Shown here one piece after another: positions 10,493 to 27,391 of a stretch of 37,560 nucleotides of DNA. The position numbers and the translations under genes are program-made. Position 1 is the first letter of the stretch, and every line of letters begins with the position of its first letter. The stretch spans positions 1 through 37,560 of the forward strand of contig CACZGM010000027.1 in assembly GCA_902780695.1 (NCBI GenBank). Reading direction: 5' to 3'. This DNA comes from an uncultured Ruminococcus sp. (GTDB taxonomy: Bacteria > Bacillota > Clostridia > Oscillospirales > Ruminococcaceae). The notes under the pieces were generated by a model. The model made no database searches and had not been told where the DNA came from. It was given only the letters and a program-made list of their open reading frames with translations.

Positions 10493-11866
10493 CTATTCCG
10501 AATCCTCCGCGGCCTCCGAAACCTCCCTGTCCGCCGAAGCCGTCTGACCGTTGACGGTGACGGTTCCGCCGTTCAGCTGTCCTGTACCGTCATAATCGAA
10601 CGCGGACTGCCCGGTCACATTGACTGTACCGCCGTTTACATAGATATTGCCGTTCGCGTCTATACCGTCGGTGTCGCCCTGACCCATTGTTACCGTAAGC
10701 TCACCGCCGTTTATCTCCACTGTCGGAGTTGTTATTGCTGTACTCTTGCGTGCAGCGTTTATGCCGTCGTCCGACGCGGAAACTGTCACCGCGCCGCCGT
10801 TTATCTGCACATAGGACGCTTCGAGACCCTCAGATGCCTTGACACTGAACGTACCGCCGTCTATCTGGAGTATCGTTGTCGCCTGAATACCGTCATCAGA
10901 TGCTGTTATATTGAACTTGCCGTCTGAAATATATATCCAGCCCACTGATCCGTCATCGTCATTCTCACAGTGCAGAGCGTCTTTCTTACTGTTTATCGTG
11001 AACGTACCGCCGCATATTCTTATCGAATCATTGGCTTCAATGCTGTCCTCTGCGGAAGTAATGCTGTATGTGCCGCCGGTGACTTTGATATCGTCCTTGC
11101 CTGCGATACCGTTGCCGTATGCAGATGTGATCTTAAGCGTTCCCGTACCGTTCAGCACAAGATCATCCTTTGAGAAGATCACCGCGTCGGTGTTGGTATC
11201 GCCGTCAGCCGTGAACTTTCCGGTCACGGAAAGCGTGCTTGTTTTGTCAGAAGTCGTTACAAAGCATTTATCCGCAGAAACAACATATATCGCTGGGAAA
11301 TCATCGTTTGTGATGCTCACGCCGTCAAGCACGAGCTGCACCTTTGCGGAACTGTCGGCGTCAACTTTTATCGTGCAGTTCTTTGCGCTGCCCTTGATGA
11401 CATAAATGCCCTCTTCGGTTATATTGATCGTCTTGCCGTCTGCGACTGTTAAGGTCACGGCTTTGCTTGTATCCGCTGTCTGTTTAAGGTCACGCGCCGA
11501 AAACAGATCTGATGTGTCGATCGCGGAACTTCCCATAGTTACATTTATCACAGTGTCGGAGCTTATCACCGAGCTTGACCCGGTATTCTGTCCGCCGGAT
11601 ACGCCCGCTCCGGCATTATTGAAATTACCGAAGCCGCCGGAGAAGCCGTTGTTGAAATTACCGTATCTGCCGCGTCCGCCAAAGCCGCGCATCACCTGTT
11701 CCGCTGCTGCACTCTCGTCTGTCACCGATGCAGCGTCACCTGCCGCCGCGGTCAGATCGTCCGCGTAAACCGCGCTTTTTCCCGCTTCCGTATTTGCCGC
11801 ACAGCCTGTGAATGCCATACATATTGCCGATGAAAGTATTATTGCAGTTAATGTTGTCTTTTTCAT
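10493..11866 (-). CDS. DUF4353 carbohydrate/calcium-binding beta-helix lipoprotein, C-terminus frameshifted
   Basis: 457 residues. A lipoprotein signal (MKKTTLTAIILSSAICMAF, lipobox FTGC with C21) predicts export and lipid anchoring. Residues 60-95 are Gly/Phe/Asn-rich (RGFGGRGRYGNF). From about 105 to 440 runs a repeating beta-helix of the DUF4353 (Cthe_2159-like) family, with rungs such as INGGTVTVSASDDGINA. Cthe_2159 binds cellulose-like sugars and calcium, so cell-surface polysaccharide binding is plausible here. The current frame ends in a non-homologous QTASADREVSEAAEDSE. Shifting by one base at about 10542-10546 gives GFGGQGGFGGRGGFGIAM and a TAA at 10485-10487, which looks like the authentic tail. 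AAAAGGAG lies 6 nt upstream of the ATG. It is divergent from, and probably controlled by, the adjacent two-component system. Confidence 0.85.
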   Translation of the reverse strand: MKKTTLTAIILSSAICMAFTGCAANTEAGKSAVYADDLTAAAGDAASVTDESAAAEQVMRGFGGRGRYGNFNNGFSGGFGNFNNAGAGVSGGQNTGSSSVISSDTVINVTMGSSAIDTSDLFSARDLKQTADTSKAVTLTVADGKTINITEEGIYVIKGSAKNCTIKVDADSSAKVQLVLDGVSITNDDFPAIYVVSADKCFVTTSDKTSTLSVTGKFTADGDTNTDAVIFSKDDLVLNGTGTLKITSAYGNGIAGKDDIKVTGGTYSITSAEDSIEANDSIRICGGTFTINSKKDALHCENDDDGSVGWIYISDGKFNITASDDGIQATTILQIDGGTFSVKASEGLEASYVQINGGAVTVSASDDGINAARKSTAITTPTVEINGGELTVTMGQGDTDGIDANGNIYVNGGTVNVTGQSAFDYDGTGQLNGGTVTVNGQTASADREVSEAAEDSE

Positions 11867-11920
11867 TTCGTACTCCTTTTCCGGCCGGATAATACCGGCG
11901 CTTTGCGTTTCTTTGACTGT

Positions 11921-11953
11921 ATTATAACCTGCGAACCTTAAATGTAACTTAAA
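11921..11953 (-). promoter_or_regulatory. Promoter and operator of the DUF4353 gene
   Basis: On the minus strand: TTTAAGTTACA (11943-11953), TTTAAGGTT (11934-11942), a 7-bp gap (11927-11933), then TATAAT (11921-11926). The two TTTAAG cores are 11 bp apart in direct orientation, as expected for an OmpR-family dimer, and they occupy the place of the -35 box. The same order and spacing occurs before the response-regulator gene. Confidence 0.75.
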
Positions 11954-12001
11954 CCGAATGTGGAAATTTTGTGAAAAGATATTATGACAGCCGCAATATA
12001 A

Positions 12002-12034
12002 CTTAAGGTATATTTAAGGTTGATACGATATAAT
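12002..12034 (+). promoter_or_regulatory. Promoter and operator of the two-component system
   Basis: CTTAAGGTATA (12002-12012), TTTAAGGTT (12013-12021), a 7-bp gap (12022-12028), then TATAAT (12029-12034). It matches the divergent DUF4353 promoter element for element, with no separate -35 consensus. This predicts positive autoregulation by the adjacent regulator. Confidence 0.75.
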
Positions 12035-12062: not shown

Positions 12063-12740
12063 ATGAAAATTCTGATAGTTGAGGATGAAAAACGTCTTGC
12101 CGACGCGCTCGTGCAGATATTCACAAAGAACAAAATGACCGCCGGTGCTTCATACAACGGCATCGACGGACTTGACAACGCGCTTTCGGGGATATACGAC
12201 GTTATAGTGCTTGACATAATGCTCCCGGGAATGAACGGTATAGATGTGCTTCGTGAACTGCGCAGGGAGGGCATAAAAACGCCCGTGATACTGCTCACGG
12301 CAAAGGACGAGGTGTCTGATAAAGTCAAAGGTCTTGACAGCGGAGCGGACGATTATCTCACAAAGCCGTTCGCAACCGAGGAGCTCCTCGCGAGAGTACG
12401 CGCTCTCGGCAGACGCAGCACCTCGGAGCTTGTCTGCGACGACACTGTCTCATACAGCGACCTGTCACTGGAGCTTGCAACATACACGCTTTCCTGCAAT
12501 TCCTGCTCTGTAAAGCTCGGGCTGAAAGAATTTTCGATAATGGAAATGCTGATGAGAAACGGCGAAAGGGTACTGACAAAGGAAAACCTTATCGTAAAGA
12601 TATGGGGCTATGACTCCGACGCCGAATACAACAATGTTGAAGTGTATATCTCATTTCTGCGGAAGAAGATCGGATTTTTAAAATCGAATGTGTCGATAAA
12701 GACGCTGCGCGGTGTCGGCTACAGCCTTGAAGCGAGGTGA
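12063..12740 (+). CDS. OmpR/PhoB-family response regulator
   Basis: 225 residues. Receiver domain 1-115: acidic D8, phospho-acceptor D51 in VIVLDIMLPG, T79 and K101 in LTKPF. A winged-helix DNA-binding domain occupies about 130-223, ending with the typical TLRGVGYSLEAR. It would be phosphorylated by the kinase encoded next and bind direct repeats. Its own promoter and the divergent DUF4353 promoter carry identical direct-repeat sites. The kinase ATG lies 5 bp beyond the stop. Confidence 0.93.
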   Translation: MKILIVEDEKRLADALVQIFTKNKMTAGASYNGIDGLDNALSGIYDVIVLDIMLPGMNGIDVLRELRREGIKTPVILLTAKDEVSDKVKGLDSGADDYLTKPFATEELLARVRALGRRSTSELVCDDTVSYSDLSLELATYTLSCNSCSVKLGLKEFSIMEMLMRNGERVLTKENLIVKIWGYDSDAEYNNVEVYISFLRKKIGFLKSNVSIKTLRGVGYSLEAR

Positions 12741-12745
12741 CGGTT

Positions 12746-14059
12746 ATGATAAAAAAACTGCGGATACGCATAACGGCGGTCATTATGGCAGGCCTTACAC
12801 TGCTGATCGCGGCGGTCGTTATCGGTATATACATCTTTATGCAGCGCTCGGAAGCAGAGGAAACGGACAAAGCCGTCGATTCCGCACTCAGCGCGGTGAC
12901 CCGTGAGGAAACGGACAAGCGGGGCGAAGAGAAGAAACCGGTGCCGCCCGAAGCTGCAGATCCGTCAAAACGTGACCCGTCCGCTTCTCCCGGAGCTGTC
13001 AGACAGCCTGCAAAGCGTCAGTCGTCGCGAAACTGGATATCCGTTCTTCTGTCATCGGAAGGAAAAGTAAAAGAGATCGCGTACAGCAGTTCCTACAACA
13101 GACCCGACAATGAGGACGAGATAGGCGGGACTGCCGAGACCATAGCCGCGCAGAACAGCGAAAACGGGTATATCCGCCTTTACGATGTACCATACAGATA
13201 TTTCATAAAACAATCCGGCGGCAGGACGCGGGTCATCTTCATCGACCGCACCAATCAGATCGAGACAATGGGACGGCTTATGATAGTGCTTATATTTGTC
13301 GGTATAGGCGCACTTGTGGTTCTTTTCCCGATAAGCGTTATGATCTCCGGCTGGATAGTGAAGCCTATTTCCCGTGCGTGGAGCAGTCAGAAGGAGTTTT
13401 TCGCGAACGCTTCTCATGAGCTTAAAACGCCGCTTACGGTCATTTCCGCAAACATAGATGTTATAACCTCCGAACCGGACAAGACCGTATCGGAGCAGAG
13501 CAAATGGTTTGAATACATTAAATCCGAGACCGGTAAAATGTCGAAGCTGATAAATCAGATGCTCTATCTGTCAAAGGACGACAGAGAGGAAACGAAGCTG
13601 ATGATGTCGCAGTTCAGCGCTTCCGAAGCAATAGAGGGAGTATGTCTTGCGACCGAGGCGCTGGCGTTCGAGAAAGGACATACCCTTGTGACGGAGATAG
13701 AACCGGATATTTCATGCACAGGAGATAAAGAGATGATCGAGCGGCTCGCGAATATACTGATCGACAACGCGATACGTCATTCTGTCGGCAGCGAAGATGT
13801 AAAAGTGGAACTGCACCGCAGGAAGAACCGCAATATCCTTACCGTGACGAATAAGGGTGAATATATCCCGCCTGAGGAGCTTTCACGGCTGTTTGACCGC
13901 TTCTACCGCACCGACAAATCCCGTACATCATCGACGGGCGGATTCGGGCTGGGTCTGTCAATCGCAAAAGCTATCGCCGACAAGCACAGGGGAACACTTA
14001 CCGCCGTGTCCTCGCCGGAGGGACTCACATCATTCACATTCACATGGCGGGATCAATAA
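12746..14059 (+). CDS. Membrane sensor histidine kinase
   Basis: 437 residues. TM1 at about 11-32, an extracytoplasmic domain of about 130 residues that is charged and Pro-rich at first, and TM2 at about 167-190. The dimerisation/phosphoacceptor helix has NASHELKTPL with H214. The ATP-binding domain has NILIDNAIRHS (N box) and GGFGLGLSIAK (G box). The linker between TM2 and the H-box is very short (about 20 residues), leaving no full HAMP domain. GAGGTGA precedes the ATG at 12746, while an in-frame GTG at 12737 overlaps the regulator stop. The sensed signal is unknown; co-regulation with a surface beta-helix protein suggests an envelope, cation or polysaccharide cue. Confidence 0.92.
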   Translation: MIKKLRIRITAVIMAGLTLLIAAVVIGIYIFMQRSEAEETDKAVDSALSAVTREETDKRGEEKKPVPPEAADPSKRDPSASPGAVRQPAKRQSSRNWISVLLSSEGKVKEIAYSSSYNRPDNEDEIGGTAETIAAQNSENGYIRLYDVPYRYFIKQSGGRTRVIFIDRTNQIETMGRLMIVLIFVGIGALVVLFPISVMISGWIVKPISRAWSSQKEFFANASHELKTPLTVISANIDVITSEPDKTVSEQSKWFEYIKSETGKMSKLINQMLYLSKDDREETKLMMSQFSASEAIEGVCLATEALAFEKGHTLVTEIEPDISCTGDKEMIERLANILIDNAIRHSVGSEDVKVELHRRKNRNILTVTNKGEYIPPEELSRLFDRFYRTDKSRTSSTGGFGLGLSIAKAIADKHRGTLTAVSSPEGLTSFTFTWRDQ

Positions 14060-26396: not shown

Positions 26397-26553
26397 GGGT
26401 ACCTCTAAAAACCGCTTTGAAAAGAGAAAATGAGATAGCTGCGTCGGATACAAGGAAAGCCTCCTAACCGGGCTGGCGCCCGGTTAGGAGGTTTGACGCA
26501 GTAGACGGCGTGGATAGCTCTTTTTCTCTCAAATTGGGTTTTTAGAGGTTCCC
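26397..26553. mobile_element. 157-bp MITE-like element at a stop codon
   Basis: The terminal inverted repeats are 17 bp: GGGTACCTCTAAAAACC (26397-26413) and, as reverse complement, GGGAACCTCTAAAAACC (26537-26553), differing at one base. AATA flanks both sides (26393-26396 and 26554-26557). Secondary arms include AGAGAAAA / TTTTTCTCT. The centre is a perfect 14-bp palindrome, CCTCCTAACCGGGC (26460-26473) and GCCCGGTTAGGAGG (26478-26491). No ORF is present, so a transposase would have to act in trans. Confidence 0.8.
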
Positions 26554-26561
26554 AATAATAT

Positions 26562-26624: not shown

Positions 26625-26657
26625 CTAAAGATTATTTTAAGAAATCCGTGTTATTAT
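26625..26657 (+). promoter_or_regulatory. Candidate promoter with degenerate TCS operator
   Basis: CTAAAGATTAT (26625-26635), TTTAAGAAA (26636-26644), a 7-bp gap, then TATTAT (26652-26657). The arrangement copies the promoters at 11921-11953 and 12002-12034, but the repeats are less similar. TATAAA at 26655-26660 is an alternative -10. Confidence 0.4.
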
Positions 26658-26716
26658 AAATACATCAAAGCAACCCCCTACAACAAAAATCAGAAAAAGA
26701 AAGGAACGTGATCATT

Positions 26717-27391
26717 ATGAAAAGATCAGTAAAAACCGCAGCTTGTATTTGTGCTTTGATTATGGCTGCAACATCGGTTTCCGCCGTCACCGCTTACGCC
26801 GACAGCACCTCACAGACCTCTGCAGCTGCTCAGGCGGACACACAGAAGCAGAAAGCAAAGAATGTAAAGATCGGCAAAGTTACCGCCGTAAACGGCAGCG
26901 AGATAACTCTCGCACTCGGCGGATATGCAAAACCGGATAAGCCCGCCGACGATACGGCAGCCGGTGACAGTACAGCGGCAGCGAAAAAGGAAAAACCCGA
27001 AAAGCAGCAGAAAGCGAAGCCTTCCGACAGTGCGGCAAGCGGCTCGGATACATCTGCCGACAGCGCTTCCGGCACAGCAAAGGCGAAGTCCGGGGGCAGG
27101 CGCGGCGGCAGGCATAAAGGCGGCAAGTCCGGAGAATTCACCGAAAACGGCAGCACCCTGACCATAACCCTTACCGACAGTATTTCCCTCAAAAAGAGCG
27201 GTAAGGCTGTGACAGCTGCCGACATCAGCGCCGGTGATATTCTTACGCTCAGATACAACGGCAGCGGTGAGCTTGTCGGTATAAATGTATCGGGTGAAAA
27301 AACGGAAAAAGCCAAGCCCGAAAGCAGCACCAAAACCAAGGGTGTGCGCAGGGACAGGAAAGCGGATACAGAGCAGGCTGTTACCGCGTAA
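26717..27391 (+). CDS. Secreted low-complexity protein (possible DUF5666-like halves)
   Basis: 224 residues. A signal peptide (MKRSVKTAACICALIMAATSVSA, probable cleavage after AYA at about 31). The N-terminal piece NVKIGKVTAVNGSEITLALGG and the C-terminal piece TLTITLTD...ADISAGDILTLRYNGSGELVGINV look like the two halves of one small beta barrel, DUF5666-like. They are separated by about 80 residues of Lys/Ser/Ala/Asp-rich linker with a basic GGRRGGRHKGGKSG stretch. The function is unknown. The ATG at 26717 follows AAAGGAA; a GTG at 26708 is too close to that site. It may belong to the regulon of the TCS at 12 kb. Confidence 0.65.
   Translation: MKRSVKTAACICALIMAATSVSAVTAYADSTSQTSAAAQADTQKQKAKNVKIGKVTAVNGSEITLALGGYAKPDKPADDTAAGDSTAAAKKEKPEKQQKAKPSDSAASGSDTSADSASGTAKAKSGGRRGGRHKGGKSGEFTENGSTLTITLTDSISLKKSGKAVTAADISAGDILTLRYNGSGELVGINVSGEKTEKAKPESSTKTKGVRRDRKADTEQAVTA

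Follow-up and report, generated by a model that had tools for sequence, protein, structure and literature searches.

A conserved direct-repeat module, putatively a CiaR-like operator, at the divergent promoters of a two-component system and a PF14262 lipoprotein gene in an uncultured Ruminococcus sp.

The window, i.e., the whole stretch of 37,560 nt analysed here from an uncultured Ruminococcus sp., harbours a lipoprotein gene and a regulator-kinase operon facing away from each other, two candidate operator-promoters between them, and a weaker related site further downstream:

10493..11866, minus strand: secreted lipoprotein of family PF14262 (Cthe_2159, formerly DUF4353), 254.6 bits (cut-off 25.8)
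11921..11953, minus strand: candidate operator-promoter of the lipoprotein gene (TTTAAG 11953-11948, N5, TTTAAG 11942-11937, N10, TATAAT 11926-11921)
12002..12034, plus strand: candidate operator-promoter of the regulator-kinase operon (CTTAAG 12002-12007, N5, TTTAAG 12013-12018, N10, TATAAT 12029-12034)
12063..12740, plus strand: OmpR-family response regulator (Response_reg and Trans_reg_C; recognition helix NVEVYISFLRKKI)
12737..14059, plus strand: sensor histidine kinase (HisKA and HATPase_c)
26625..26657, plus strand: weaker related site CTAAAG-N5-TTTAAG-N10-TATTAT (1 mismatch), before the secreted gene at 26708
26708..27391, plus strand: small secreted Lys/Ala-rich protein, likelier start ATG at 26717

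The lipoprotein has solved relatives (4peu/4phb, E 8.3e-26), and its family is presumably a right-handed β-helix binding plant polysaccharide. A short G+C-rich hairpin (11884-11899) is present in the lipoprotein mRNA leader, adjoining the ribosome-binding site. Combining a receiver with Trans_reg_C and standing beside a HisKA/HATPase kinase, the regulator forms with the latter a two-component system of the OmpR/PhoB family; overlap of the two reading frames suggests their co-transcription. About 140 residues of the kinase seemingly lie between two membrane segments, as judged by eye. In NCBIfam, the matches listed for regulator and kinase stay below the cut-offs, and the lipoprotein has no match.

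Both divergent promoters share the module NTTAAG-N5-TTTAAG-N10-TATAAT, which reads TTTAAG-ttaca-TTTAAG-gttcgcaggt-TATAAT on the minus strand (11953-11921) and CTTAAG-gtata-TTTAAG-gttgatacga-TATAAT on the plus strand (12002-12034). As a previous reading of the sequence alone had claimed, the cores recur every 11 bp in one orientation at both sites, and the module in the form given there (YTTAAGKTAYA, TTTAAGGTT, 7 bp, TATAAT) fits both exactly. With as many as three mismatches allowed, the window contains no match beyond these two, and none arises in 100 dinucleotide shuffles of it. The genome-wide scan proposed with that reading has been run: the exact module (second hexamer TANNNT) occurs in only two copies in the 3.29-Mb own genome, both at 11921-12034, and the reversed control pattern has 0 matches. 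By a second score, which uses a word fitted later to the regulator family and a cut of 16 points, the two sites reach 17 and 18 points. In 40 dinucleotide-shuffled versions of the window, read on both strands, 2 matches have at least 16 points and 0 have at least 17. Two more 16-point matches in the real window (14160 and 21950) are taken as chance. For the module itself, a chance origin is rejected by both sets of shuffles. That the likeness of the two promoters reflects a recent DNA duplication or chance, devoid of regulatory meaning, might be considered in view of their closeness (48 bp, core to core); it is extremely improbable, as the spacers and flanks of the two sites differ, the chance expectation of the module is zero, and the module recurs in distant genomes.

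Conservation was analysed for 81 regulator promoters, i.e., that of the window and those of the best 80 from a longer list of named relatives (93–49 % identity). Among these best 80, the nearest relative (93 %) belongs to an uncultured Clostridia bacterium, others to Oscillospiraceae or Ruminococcus assemblies. A sequence-free test, which looked for a direct repeat of 7 bases preceding a -10, detected the period of 11 in 45 of the 81 promoters versus 3–5 in three shuffles, while each of the 16 other periods tried (8 to 24) was found in 2–13 promoters. With the word TTYAAK, picked after the sites had been seen, the module is present in 60/81 promoters versus 0–5 in ten shuffles (kinship ignored in both counts) and falls below the cut in 21/81. 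The gap to the -10 among these 60 modules is 9 bp in 47, 10 bp in 11 and 8 bp in 2 cases. Regulator relatives (57–60 %) are also carried by the Treponema-labelled loci L121, L123, L128, L132, L133, L134 and L141, the regulator promoters of which are without the module (5/7) or marginal (2/7), perhaps owing to transfer with rewiring or to misbinned contigs.

Orthologs of the window regulator (at least 81 % identity) are present in 7 of 60 genus genomes, own included. Conservation at orthologous loci, on which the sequence-only reading had been made to depend, is indeed found: the 10-bp-spaced operator precedes the regulator in six of the seven (G000, G011, G061, G074, G081, G083). In G082, no 10-bp-spaced operator precedes the regulator itself, which stands after the remnant of a broken β-helix gene bearing a 9-bp-spaced site; in this locus (L263, contig 13 of G082), N- and C-terminal pieces of a β-helix gene of the type found on own contig 113 (see below) lie directly before the regulator, with their own 9-bp-spaced site. 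The lipoprotein ortholog of G011 (L268) is located away from the regulator and has kept the 10-bp-spaced operator. In G061 (L266), a different, β-helix-like gene is divergent to the regulator and has a 9-bp-spaced operator. Between operator-promoter and regulator of G011 lies a repeat element of ~150 bp which by eye resembles window positions 26398-26556. The latter represent a MITE-like repeat element of ~159 bp bounded by imperfect terminal inverted repeats, for which a search yielded 43 matches in the own genome, many of them partial.

Relatives fall into a set with mostly TTTAAG and a set with mostly TTCAAT as half-site, and their recognition helices differ accordingly (NVEVYISFLRKKL versus NVEVYMSFTRKKL). 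Where helix residue 9 is T, A or S, the first half-site is of the form C..T in 15 promoters and not in 1; with any other residue it is of this form in 1 promoter and not in 43 (60 promoters in total). Half-site and recognition helix thus co-vary (Fisher 5e-12, with kinship ignored and the TTCAAT rows mostly from one clade). In the tree of relatives, the branch of row L092 is abnormally long, and the label 'nosite' of L072 stems only from its promoter being unscored there. The co-variation over 60 promoters also offers naturally occurring data on DNA reading by OmpR-type regulators.

The repeats are proposed to replace the -35 box. A promoter scanner found no sigma-70-type pair at the plus site and, at the minus site, a pair of 10/12 (GTTACA-16 bp-TATAAT), the GTTACA of which lies inside the operator spacer. 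This fair sigma-70-type pair, together with the fact that CiaR represses some promoters, could be taken to mean that the repeats form a repressor site or part of an unusual sigma-factor promoter rather than the site of a two-component activator. Such an explanation is very unlikely, given half-sites repeated at one helical turn, their fixed distance to TATAAT and their co-variation with the recognition helix; moreover, alternative sigma factors as a rule do without TATAAT. An activator site of the two-component system remains the preferred interpretation.

PF14262 is present in 46 of the 60 genus genomes. For the larger PF14262 genes, 49 upstream regions from 38 genomes besides the own were analysed (omitting, e.g., G025, at a contig start, and G078), with a family regulator called at E up to 1e-45 and an operator at 16 points or more. 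Among genomes with a family regulator the operator occurs in 15/18, among those without in 0/20 (Fisher 5e-8, kinship ignored); antisense matches occur in 1 of the 49 regions. The three misses are G007 (573 bases readable), G013 (one point under the cut) and G033. Once own contigs 7, 43 and 20 and the small genes are added (61 regions), 24 coding-strand matches, one of them a regulator promoter (L206), compare with 1 antisense and 1 shuffled match.

A weight matrix derived from the regulator promoters yielded 115 matches in 0.89 Mb, 62 of them labelled regulator promoters; after shuffling, 30 of the 90 regulator loci gave 2 matches. Several unlabelled matches are regulator promoters with a longer frame start and were excluded from the targets. 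Further matches precede genes for VTC (L088, L109, L130, L135, L137, L139, L147), PF14262 (L080, L143, L145), HtrA (L142, L161, L076), HlyD-type (L129, L153) and FtsX-type proteins (L140, L150, L155). A VTC, DUF4956 or PF14262 gene is located near the regulator in 16/90 loci (14/80 named, 2/10 unnamed), the stretches being unequal in length and without base rate.

The three best places with 9 bp to TATAAT in the own genome (0, 1 and 1 mismatches) are:

contig 7: 9-bp-spaced site upstream of a PF14262 protein
contig 43: 9-bp-spaced site upstream of a VTC-DUF4956-PF14262 operon
contig 113: 9-bp-spaced site upstream of a β-helix-like lipoprotein

In L068 (own contig 7, before the PF14262 gene), four TTTTAA-type half-sites stand in a row, 11–12 bp apart, before the -10, which perhaps represents a higher-order binding array. 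The fold of the contig-113 lipoprotein rests mainly on its 40 % identity over 298 columns to the β-helix part of L083 (Beta_helix match of 22.4 bits, under the cut-off of 25.9), because its structure model is weak (mean pLDDT 53.5) and all its PDB matches fall short of E 0.001, even though β-helix proteins make up most of the best ones. A fourth, small PF14262 gene (contig 20) and nine relatives have the operator in 0/10 regions.

With 10 bp to the -10 and one mismatch, two places were found in the own genome, contig 50:14686, which is probably chance, and 26625-26657 of the window. Looser matching gives mostly background, with 46 matches of the 10-bp pattern versus 98 of its reversed control when two mismatches are allowed, and 22 versus 50 for the 9-bp pattern when three are allowed. 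Only own-genome matches with 0–1 mismatch were therefore used, namely 4 (10-bp) and 3 (9-bp).

The site at 26625-26657 scores under the 16-point cut in the window. Similar sites are located downstream of the regulator in G011, G061, G074, G081 and G082, each before a frame of 234–246 residues, and in G083 without an assigned frame. The protein of 26708..27391 has no Pfam family; its likeness was checked by alignment for two loci, with 50 % identity to L084:8090-8827 and 35 % to the N-terminal part of L083:6829-8352. In the latter, a 26708-type protein and a contig-113-type β-helix are joined in 508 residues, with an operator present; this fusion suggests that the separate 26708-type and contig-113-type proteins act together.

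The own genome encodes a paralogous regulator on contig 39 (48 % identity to the window regulator). Spacing alone does not separate the two, because genomes without a window ortholog have 9- or 10-bp-spaced sites: G002, G066 and G071, which possess the paralog and lack the window regulator, have 9-bp-spaced sites at PF14262/VTC or β-helix genes, and G014, G019, G026, G028 and G032 have 10-bp-spaced sites at their own regulator and PF14262 genes. Both observations would fit a contig-39 paralog reading the window sites or most of the regulon, with the window regulator either left with the 10-bp-spaced sites only or sharing. This is judged rather unlikely, since such an operator is absent from the own promoters of the contig-39 paralog and of the paralogs of G002, G011, G061, G066, G074, G081 and G082 (by eye), and since the window sites adjoin the window regulator and are conserved with it. 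The window regulator is the most likely reader of the adjacent 10-bp-spaced sites; those spaced by 9 bp may be read by the paralog, the window regulator or both. Tentatively, and with some doubt, one may speculate that the CiaR-like family is a dedicated Clostridia switch of a widespread surface apparatus (a polyphosphate-polymerase-like VTC protein, a membrane protein of DUF4956 and secreted β-helix proteins, those of PF14262 among them), with the targets of the paralogs split by 10- versus 9-bp spacing and half-site flanks and with helix residues 6 and 9 reading the half-site base. Against a split by spacing stands the genus branch without window ortholog that has 10-bp-spaced sites at PF14262 genes.

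The module is real and conserved, and very probably functional as judged from these sequence comparisons. It is likely that the regulator (12063-12740) binds pairs of TTTAAG and activates its own operon and the PF14262 lipoprotein gene, and probably also the 26708 gene. Once phosphorylated, the regulator would dimerise head to tail on two TTTAAG half-sites with a period of 11 bp, standing in for a -35 box, and RNA polymerase would be recruited to the TATAAT 10 bp downstream. Activation of its own regulator-kinase operon would result in positive feedback, and that of the divergent PF14262 gene in coupled expression of a surface β-helix lipoprotein; the related 9-bp-spaced sites (at other β-helix genes and the VTC-DUF4956-PF14262 genes) are predicted to belong to the same regulator family, i.e., to the window regulator or the contig-39 paralog. 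We infer binding, dependence on phosphorylation, and activation rather than repression. The prediction of a positively autoregulated system with a surface β-helix protein as main output is borne out as far as an operator is present at the own promoter. The positive sign is suggested by the place of the operator and by analogy to CiaR, and the output has to be amended, as it appears wider than one protein and the paralog may own the 9-bp-spaced sites. Since the same repeats front the system's own genes and the neighbouring surface-protein gene and recur in relatives, the system probably activates its own expression jointly with that of a set of surface proteins.

In these bacteria, genes for PF14262, VTC and DUF4956 proteins are common and their role is largely uncharacterised; searches of open-access literature found no paper that names a regulator for the PF14262/VTC/DUF4956/β-helix surface genes. 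With an operator that is conserved and recognisable, the regulon can be listed from sequence, its regulator named and the function of the surface genes tested.

PhoB operators consist of half-sites in the same orientation with a period of 11 bp. The window half-sites resemble such PhoB/OmpR-type operators in period, orientation and location at the -35 place, and differ in half-site sequence.

The promoters of the streptococcal CiaR regulon, as given in passages of PMC3091779, follow the consensus NTTAAG-N5-TTTAAG, searched with ten bases to TATAAT. The window module has the operator word, N5 and ten bases to TATAAT in common with these passages; as in CiaRH, the regulator's own promoter carries a site. 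The system appears CiaR-like in operator and geometry. The window helix NVEVYISFLRKKI is identical to that of CiaR (VVEVYVSKVRKKL) in 8 of 13 positions, versus 5 of 13 for three generic OmpR-type rows. HtrA genes with a site beside the relatives L142, L161 and L076 tie the family to CiaRH. In contrast, the own HtrA-like gene (contig 73) has no site of at least 15 points, which is among the reasons why the window system is not assigned to CiaRH. Small RNAs behind the two exact sites, the only exact copies genome-wide, are not seen because both precede reading frames. The targets found here, genes for β-helix, PF14262 and VTC-DUF4956 proteins, differ as well.

For BAS0540-BAS0541, a CiaRH-like Bacillus system, gel shifts described in parts of PMC4938410 demonstrated binding to TTTAAG-N5-TTTAAG, own promoter included. 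Operator word and site at the own promoter agree with the window, in contrast to the targets named in these parts (YflT, FtsA, CAAX protease, efflux subunit). VTC/DUF4956/CotH clusters have been described, in the passages available, as accessory to pel loci, with VTC and CotH in NELoc-2 of C. perfringens. The VTC-DUF4956-PF14262 operon on own contig 43 is similar to them; unlike in the present case, the literature passages on these clusters name no OmpR-type regulator.
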